The position numbers and the translations under genes are program-made. The notes beneath the pieces were generated by a model. It had not been told where the DNA came from. It searched no databases and was given only the letters and a program-made list of their open reading frames with translations. Of a stretch of 41,009 bases of DNA, positions 9,251-41,009 are shown piece by piece. Position 1 is the first letter of the stretch; every line of letters starts with the position of its first letter. The stretch spans positions 573,147 to 614,155 of the forward strand of contig MU646377.1 in NCBI GenBank assembly GCA_026770585.1. The letters run 5' to 3'. The stretch comes from Baffinella frigidus (lineage: Eukaryota; Cryptophyceae; Cryptomonadales; Baffinellaceae).

Positions 9251-9957
9251 AGAAAAAATCGTGGCATCCCTGACCTCCTGCGAGCAACCCCCACACTCAG
9301 ACCCCTGCTGACCTTCGCTCATCAGGTTCACTTGCCTTCTCCACACCTCGCCTTCCCTTCCGTCCTTGCACACCAAAAAATGCCCACCCTGCCCGCACCC
9401 CATGCACCAACAGCCTCTCCATCAGGCACCAGGAACCGAACACAAACCAGCACTCGGACCACCCCTCCACCTCGCCTTCCCGGTCAGAGTAGGGTCCGCA
9501 AAAGCAGTATTCCAAAATCTCTGCCCGAAGCGACAGCCACGCCACCCCGCGCCTTGCGCGGCGACCAGAAACACAATTCTATCGACATGCCGGTCCTCCC
9601 AAAGCCTTTGAGGGAGCATACCGGGACCCCCCGTTCAAGGTTCTCGGGGTCGACGGCAGCCATCCCCGTTGACGTCACCACAAATTTCGCTGGATTTGCT
9701 AAGTCAACCTGGCCACTTTCAGACAAGGAACGGCTCCAATTCCCTCACCCTTGGAGCCATTTAACGGACCAGGCCCAGGGCGAGGTTGGTCGACGGAGCA
9801 CTGAAGGGTTGTCTGCCGCGATGAGGGGGAGCACAGGAGGCTCCGGGCTGCCGACAGTGGGCAAGGGCTCCAAGAGCGGGCGGCAGGAGGACAGTTCCGC
9901 GATGCATATGCATCCCCACTACTGGGGGATCGAGGAGGAGAAACCGGCGCAGATTGC
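9251..9957. repeat. Right arm of inverted duplication
   Basis: Partner of 8028-8892. Its outer end lies inside the first recognised exon of the WD40-RCC1 gene, whose frame runs on through the boundary at 9957, so this arm is the likely source copy. Confidence 0.9.

Positions 9958-41009: not shown

Follow-up and report, generated by a model that had tools for sequence, protein, structure and literature searches.

Most exons of a large nuclear gene of the cryptophyte Baffinella frigidus are flanked, inside the adjoining introns, by degenerate direct copies of their own ends, here called ghosts. In the window (the whole 41,009 bp stretch analysed, C75:573147–614155 of a 382 Mb assembly, free of gaps except for one run of 10 Ns), 35 of the 53 exons of the plus-strand gene have a ghost in an adjacent intron (23 of 52 upstream and 23 of 53 downstream), and 18 have none. 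Ghosts were sought by Smith-Waterman comparison of each exon, with 30 bp on either side, against its own adjacent introns, with satellite DNA masked and the exon's own flanks excluded; the threshold was the 99% level of a far-intron control. The reverse-complement control gave 0 of 53 exons, and random far introns gave 0.94 exons on average and never more than 5 of 53 in 2000 draws. The initial annotation, which described most exons as flanked by degenerate copies of their own ends, is thus borne out, its figure of 39 of 54 plus-strand exons being slightly high. The self-comparison that it proposed agrees: all-against-all alignment of the window (score at least 30) gives 209 direct pairs, 159 of them within 1 kb, against 74 inverted pairs (30 within 1 kb). 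Within the plus gene, pairs of an exon and an intronic copy make up 68 of 135 local direct pairs, those with less than 8 bp of exon overlap being classed as intron-only. Ghosts differ from their parents at ∼12% of sites, and the longest run that a pair shares has a median of 16 bp (the longest of all, 116 bp, is believed to come from an exon 27 pair with overlapping intervals); 20 of the 68 lie no more than 150 bp from the parent block, and up to four stand beside one exon. Distance from the parent and divergence are not correlated among the ghosts. Introns are longer the more ghosts they contain (Spearman 0.70; mean 614 bp with a ghost, 335 bp without), a correlation limited by the fact that longer introns also offer more room for ghosts.

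The host gene (9821–40386, plus strand) continues beyond the end of the window. Its 53 exons all have GT-AG splice sites and encode 1599 codons without a stop; the 52 introns (median 513 bp, range 156–1098 bp) total 25.8 kb, and the coding sequence 4.8 kb. The product has an N-terminal region and WD40 and RCC1 repeats, the repeats having been identified in a previous draft translation. When this draft was searched against proteins, P0001 (T484DRAFT_3409716, 741 amino acids, from Baffinella frigidus) was by far the best of the 8000 word-sharing candidates scored, and since 739 of its 741 residues match the window in spliced alignment, P0001 represents the same locus. It spans exons 3–27 only and reads through the exon 27 donor; ghosts may be the cause of this fragmentary gene model. 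Exons 5–26 follow the P0001 alignment, exons 3, 4, and 27 have one end changed, and the remaining exons come from a codon model and reading; points of uncertainty are a microexon of the alignment that was omitted (12448–12457), the end of exon 3 at 11330, and exon 4, which was cut to 15 bp. GT begins 25 of 52 exons, and AG|GT is the sequence at 14 of 52 exon joins, where AGGT makes up 0.33% of the coding sequence (9821–40386); the frequency of such joins is possibly a trace of intron gain at AGGT sites. Between this gene and a divergent minus-strand gene lies an inverted duplication (8028–8503 and 9486–9957; 476 bp, 95% identical) that holds the plus-gene upstream region and its first ∼137 coding bases. 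Rfam has no match in the window. As far as the available part of the genome report goes (PMC9756366), the published genome is 534.5 Mb with a GC content of 53.9% and 41.1% repeats, and the assembly is 6.1 times that of Guillardia; the strain sequenced there is CCMP2293, to which the window is assumed to belong, and CCMP2045 is named as a conspecific strain.

The ghosts follow a strict side rule. In the plus gene all 36 downstream ghosts contain the donor end of their exon and none contains the acceptor end, and 28 of the 32 upstream ghosts contain the acceptor end (25 that end only, 3 both ends), four having neither; altogether, 61 of 68 carry one splice end only and 3 carry both. A local direct duplication of a block lying across one splice junction gives exactly this rule. 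The median junction block (61 blocks) takes in 36 bp from the exon and 6 bp from the intron. Seven junction blocks in the window are near-identical, and in these the intron end lies 2–16 bp from the splice site and the exon side measures 21–54 bp. Among donor ghosts, identity to the parent falls from 0.88 in the final 10 bases of the exon and 0.94 at the GT to 0.62 at +3 to +6 and 0.49 at +7 to +16, before reaching 0.37 at +17 to +26 (shuffled pairs give 0.24–0.31 outside the GT); acceptor ghosts have a similar profile, in which shuffled pairs rise to 0.45 beside the AG. Recognisable intron-flank homology is present in 30 of 64 ghosts and weakens, as an absolute rule, the idea that ghosts end flush at the splice site.

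Upstream of their parents (exon coordinates in parentheses; all on the plus strand) lie first the whole-exon ghosts, namely 11008–11045 before exon 3 (11300–11330), with both splice ends and 92% identity, and 11791–11818 and 11904–11936 before exon 4 (12038–12052, itself uncertain). Acceptor-end ghosts of exon 6 (13352–13459) are at 12928–12984, 13143–13171, and 13237–13299, and ghost-ghost matches add 13060–13086, which makes up the four upstream copies claimed in the initial annotation. Others belong to exon 7 (14001–14111; 13644–13697 and 13728–13833), exon 10 (15923–15994; 15613–15690 and 15847–15873), exon 13 (17821–17958; 17621–17699), exon 16 (20041–20150; 19757–19793, 19836–19881, and 19925–19971), exon 23 (23648–23737; 23501–23545), and exon 25 (24802–24903; 24579–24654). 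The two of exon 27 (26203–26294), within 25882–26121, have long intron homology and are tandem-like. Exon 29 (27773–27834) has three (27348–27374, 27481–27503, and 27597–27624), exon 33 (30498–30539) has one of 96.7% identity (30384–30413), and exon 38 (32393–32497) has one at 32297–32342. In the ghost of exon 40 (33536–33631) at 33319–33381 all seven differences in the exon part are silent, which is unexpected of a neutral relic. The ghost of exon 44 (35494–35596) at 35383–35447 is mostly intron, and the acceptor-end series ends with exons 50 (38841–38899; 38761–38788) and 52 (39528–39647; 39293–39348). Two further upstream ghosts are 28314–28356, before exon 30 (28486–28557), and 37703–37741, before exon 48 (38040–38120), the latter with neither splice end.

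Donor-end ghosts lie downstream of exon 5 (12536–12619) at 12680–12713; exon 8 (14390–14470) at 14630–14686 (96.5%) and 14726–14761, with G-rich heptamer DNA between; exon 9 (15053–15160) at 15336–15398; exon 14 (18249–18316) at 18403–18443, 18510–18550, and 18652–18684; exon 15 (18875–18972) at 19060–19100, 19257–19306, and 19582–19608; and exon 18 (20700–20770) at 20954–21001. Exon 22 (22810–22862) has three (22936–22988, 23017–23101, and 23216–23234), the first two with homologous intron flanks; several copies had been claimed for it, and this holds, at three rather than five or more. A weak ghost at 24475–24494 belongs to exon 24 (24117–24224), which is below the threshold of the ghost test, and 25032–25098 to exon 25. 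For exon 28 (26503–26674) BLAST gave three copies, 26783–26814, 26920–26959 (97.5%), and 27132–27175, and ghost-ghost matches supplied the fourth that the initial annotation had counted, 27017–27051. Exon 29, credited there with four upstream and two downstream copies, has its three upstream ghosts, one downstream at 27899–27932, and another at 28156–28198 recovered through a ghost-ghost match. Exon 30 has ghosts at 28681–28742 and 28790–28817, exon 32 (29621–29749) at 29970–30000 (96.8%), exon 34 (30794–30850) at 30949–30977, exon 38 at 32581–32622, exon 39 (32749–32844) at 32952–33023, exon 43 (34745–34835) at 34965–35075, and exon 44 at 35732–35778 (93.6%). The four downstream copies claimed for exon 46 (36288–36386) are all present within 36457–36886 and form a tandem array with homologous intron flanks. 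The last are those of exon 47 (37153–37262; 37427–37500 and 37589–37624) and exon 52 (39799–39888 and 39984–40027).

A similar pattern extends to the neighbouring gene and to sampled stretches of other scaffolds. In the minus-strand gene (973–8212, a predicted model), seven of 11 predicted exons have local direct copies and 0 of 11 have inverted ones, where 8 of 11–13 had been claimed; the copies are there, in a model that is unvalidated and with one score barely above threshold (the last predicted exon, a simple repeat, was left out). The exon finder was trained on the plus gene, and 33 of its 34 calls in the window are real exons. On other scaffolds, in ∼76 kb of readable sequence, 44 of 76 predicted exons have direct copies against 4 of 76 with inverted ones, so ghosts are not confined to one odd gene. 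The first set contributed 55 exons (28 direct, 2 inverted), after exclusion of loci with more than 95% N, of two loci from the window's own place, and of exons outscored by an overlapping call on the opposite strand; the second, limited to three new loci, contributed three further stretches with 21 exons (16 direct, 2 inverted). One stretch (L024) has ghosts beside 0 of its 7 predicted exons. With these uncurated exons the side rule is looser: 18 of 56 matches are downstream with the donor only, 11 are upstream with the acceptor only, and 21 have neither end, and the six off-rule matches are two downstream with the acceptor, three upstream with the donor, and one downstream with both.

The explanation that we narrowly prefer, and to which we give slightly less than an even chance, is repair of staggered breaks with filler, each event duplicating one exon-intron junction. 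The ghosts would then be relics of repeated local direct duplications. A staggered DNA break would be repaired such that its filled-in ends leave 20–90 bp of the break site on either side of a filler, which could be a short multi-copy element, telomere-like heptamer DNA, or some other sequence. Where the duplicated block holds a donor, the copy joined to the rest of the exon would keep working and the second copy would become part of the intron downstream; where it holds an acceptor, the first copy would fall into the intron upstream. The message would be unchanged, so the duplication should be nearly neutral; the intron would be longer, and the ghost would then decay. This model leaves the excess of third-position differences described below unexplained, and some arrays (exons 22, 27, 28, and 46) look like ordinary tandem duplications of an exon end together with intron sequence.

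Those arrays, with their homologous intron parts, speak for the most serious alternative, a plausible one that we nonetheless think will probably prove wrong: plain local tandem duplication by slippage or unequal exchange, in which the spacers are parts of the intron that have diverged, lost register through heptamer turnover, or been invaded by elements, and duplications stand out at exons since protection there preserves one of the copies. Direct orientation and the correct side agree with it as well, and so does the flank homology of nearly half the ghosts. In the 22 extended ghosts (intron homology of at least 13 bp) the divergence is 0.150 in the intron, 0.082 at codon positions 1 and 2, and 0.186 at position 3, near the expectation for a neutral copy beside a conserved exon, and these ratios too fit tandem duplication. 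Against it stands the sharp drop of homology at the splice site, from 0.88 before it to 0.49 at +7 to +16 in donors.

The lengths of young repeats bear on the same question. Near-identical pairs (minimum length 24 bp, minimum identity 95%) number 15 from the first set and 7 from the three further loci, the latter partly overlapping and therefore not all independent. In 21 of the 22 the block is shorter than the repeat distance, and in one the copies are head-to-tail; intron growth is therefore not simply head-to-tail junction duplication, and the tandem explanation loses ground, although a later insertion into a true tandem pair could possibly give the same relation. The spacer resembles a flank in 13 of the 21 spaced pairs, which favours tandem duplication, and is unlike either flank (scores below 24), as a filler would be, in the other 8, the weaker of which are 29723–29753 (borderline, score 21), one at the edge of its stretch, and one with a mostly heptamer spacer. 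The cleanest of the 8 are one on C4 (33 bp identical, 111 bp spacer), one on C29 (24 bp identical, 99 bp), and the exon 8 ghost (57 bp at 96.5%, 156 bp spacer). A pair on C50 is 43 bp long and 100% identical (by reading, 30 bp of exon end and 13 bp of intron), with a 90 bp spacer that has three weak relatives elsewhere; it had been taken for the cleanest insert, and is counted among the 13 since its spacer weakly resembles the preceding sequence (score 30). At positions 4193–4544 of another stretch (L067), three copies of a 33–35 bp block are 100% identical and lie at intervals of 144 and 173 bp; their spacers are for the most part dissimilar.

Uniform tandem duplication can also be judged by how often introns copy themselves. 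A local direct copy is present for 32 of 53 exon bodies and for 47.6% of 1000 random intron segments of any kind, 36.3% of 1000 segments of any kind when exons are masked in the target, and 20.0% of 1000 segments with at most 10% ghost. The existence of such intron-only copies (20–48% of segments, by definition) is expected under tandem duplication. When uniform tandem duplication with purifying selection on exons was simulated, the indel rates tried gave 0.75–0.83 for introns when exons were at 0.53–0.64; by the simulation's own measure real introns are at 0.36, and a simpler duplication simulation pointed in the same direction. The exon excess exceeds the uniform tandem-duplication null, and part of it could be explained by faster turnover of real introns. 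A counter-possibility raised in the initial annotation, that copies are no commoner beside exons than elsewhere in introns, thus does not describe the window, and beyond it ∼76 kb has been sampled. Its proposal that introns grow by repeated duplication of exon-intron junctions survives in part: the copies are local and direct and, in the plus gene, lie across one junction on the correct side, and intron length rises with their number, whereas copies also occur away from junctions and the block is shorter than the repeat distance in nearly all young pairs.

What fills the spacers varies: some hold multi-copy elements, and others hold heptamer arrays or nearly unique sequence, as in the spacer at exon 38. 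Element A (35599–35699, plus strand; 155 candidate places, 42 matches in the 40 scored) starts 3 bp past the exon 44 donor end and occupies ∼100 bp of the 135 bp spacer (35597–35731) that leads to the ghost. A piece of element B lies between two exon 29 ghosts (27504–27596, plus strand; 1562 candidate places, 57 matches in the 40 scored), its matches running from 27506 to 27597; copies elsewhere (L046–L065) have terminal inverted repeats that, read by eye, begin TACAGGGGTACCTCGCTCATAAG. The similarity of element C (29857–29969, plus strand; 2334 candidate places, 43 matches in the 40 scored) to its other copies ends at ∼29966, four bases before the exon 32 ghost at 29970. The queries for B and C were cut at ghost borders, and their flush ends rest on comparison with an uncut query. 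On visual reading, copies of A, B, and C elsewhere extend further and are truncated on reaching the exon-interior side of the ghost; staggered-break repair with filler predicts an arrangement of this kind. A family of ∼135 bp elements, in both orientations, is found at 1957–2090, 7897–8010, 27930–28047, 29863–29968, and 33705–33845, with inverted ends near CTAGCTCTG...CAGAGCTAG (by eye). Dispersed repeats cover 17.4% of spacers and 12.7% of other intron, figures based on limited sequence, and repeat ends coincide with exon or ghost ends in 12 of 87 cases against a null of 11.1, which is no excess (matches in minisatellite stretches were left out).

Insertion of elements with long target duplications was considered as a single cause. 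Strong long flanking repeats (score above 44) accompany 4 of 20 element A copies, not significantly above the 10.8% at random places, and 2 of 20 element B copies (1 of 20 in the inverted control); this random-position control, and the presence of a multi-copy element in a ghost-free intron as well, weaken the idea. Degenerate CCCTAAA/TTTAGGG heptamer DNA constitutes 16.4% of the window (0 in one shuffle), and as a cause of ghosts heptamer arrays were set aside, since their density in spacers (0.37) equals that in introns (0.39), with no enrichment. The exact heptamers are strongly strand-biased relative to transcription, with CCCTAAA:TTTAGGG on the sense strand at 196:11 in the plus gene (9821–41009) and 48:4 in the minus gene (1–8160); sense TTTAG|GG resembles a 3′ splice site, and splicing may therefore select the heptamer strand. 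Minisatellites of 20–22 bp around ATAAACGG occupy parts of three introns (13707–13981, 24656–24808, and 37755–37995), the first matching the third.

A more far-reaching reading, which we consider unlikely, is that a junction-directed process operates genome-wide: breaks or insertions would prefer splice junctions and positions 20–50 bp into the exon, each would copy the exon end, and intron length would be largely a record of such events. The ends of the seven near-identical junction blocks given above accord with it.

Doubtful to a greater degree is an origin in which diverged alleles undergo unequal exchange or template switching, so that ghosts would be born with silent differences and unrelated intron flanks. 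Codon positions speak for it. Ghosts and exons differ at 284 sites, of which 66, 46, and 172 fall at positions 1, 2, and 3, the third being in excess; 126 of the 284 differences are non-synonymous, and there are 9 gaps. Diverged alleles are a possible source of the surplus over neutral decay. The 45 flush ghosts have 70 differences at positions 1 and 2 and 128 at position 3 (128 of 198), a larger share than the 43 of 82 in the extended ghosts (one of the 68 ghosts falls between the cut-offs); this difference is modest. The private changes of younger ghosts are likewise biased to the third position (22 of 36, p = 0.001). On the other side, no second exon 28 was found in the 382 Mb assembly, and apart from P0001 no protein among the matches listed exceeds 38% identity.

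Assembly error, a doubt already voiced in the initial annotation, looks very improbable. It would consist of heterozygous bubbles laid end to end, and the published assembly was indeed made from Illumina reads alone with AllPathsLG, according to the accessible part of its description (PMC9756366); opposed to it are the ∼12% divergence and short shared runs of the copies, the gap-free sequence but for one 10-N run, the presence of up to four ghosts per exon, the position of 20 of the 68 within 150 bp of the parent block, and the strict side rule. Functional alternative or mutually exclusive exon ends, which would account for the intact GT in 32 of 36 donor ghosts, the intact AG in 24 of 28 acceptor ghosts, and the third-position bias, can be given hardly any credence, as nearly all ghosts have one splice end only and complete exon copies with both ends are just 3 of 68, close to half of the differences are non-synonymous, and ghost splice sites on average score below those of their parents (21 of 36 donors, p = 0.008; 18 of 28 acceptors, p = 0.011).

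Lengthening of introns is usually inferred from transposons or from genome averages; in Baffinella, its intermediate steps can apparently still be followed next to the majority of exons in one gene, and the system brings its own clock (decay of the ghost relative to the protected exon) and its own control (inverted orientation). Short duplications of local DNA, concealed by splicing, may thus go on lengthening these introns, and if long reads confirm this, a single species would allow direct measurement of how fast introns grow, by what lengths, and with which repair signature. A practical consequence is that gene prediction in genomes of this kind will pick up ghost exons, as the first-pass model of the plus gene did at several places.

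Introner elements are single multi-copy elements that form introns at many sites with short target duplications. Elements A and B resemble them in being short, multi-copy, and close to splice boundaries; all three elements A–C are multi-copy, and the comparison of flanks covered long repeats beside copies of A and B. Nor do the ghosts correspond to the AGGT intron gain of Rogers, where a new intron is bounded by two copies, as they lie inside introns and have their own GT or AG. Double-strand break repair has been invoked to explain intron gains in Daphnia pulex (Li et al. 2009, as cited in the available part of the review PMC3488318). The likeness is that new intronic sequence comes with short repeats, which point to break repair; there, however, the introns are new and the repeats are called short, whereas in Baffinella copies of 20–90 bp lie in existing introns beside most exons of one gene. 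In the horse, telomeric repeats were inserted at staggered breaks with direct target duplication at 3 of 66 loci (Table 5 of PMC7215372). Telomere-like DNA flanked by a direct target duplication is the common element, but in Baffinella the majority of exons have copies, the intervening DNA frequently lacks telomere-like character, and the intronic heptamers have one orientation relative to transcription. The duplication of the potato RdRp gene, which copied intron-exon structure (PMC4974935), and the Drosophila case (PMC2891723) are, in the portions of those reports consulted, also local direct duplications of coding sequence hidden by splicing; the copies in Baffinella, in contrast, are numerous, look non-functional, and lie in existing introns. 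The titles and abstract openings among the literature matches listed, which include few subscription journals, describe no dense exon-end copies in introns of Baffinella or of another genome. Single cases of introns gained through local duplication or break repair are known, and it is the density of such events in Baffinella that may be new.
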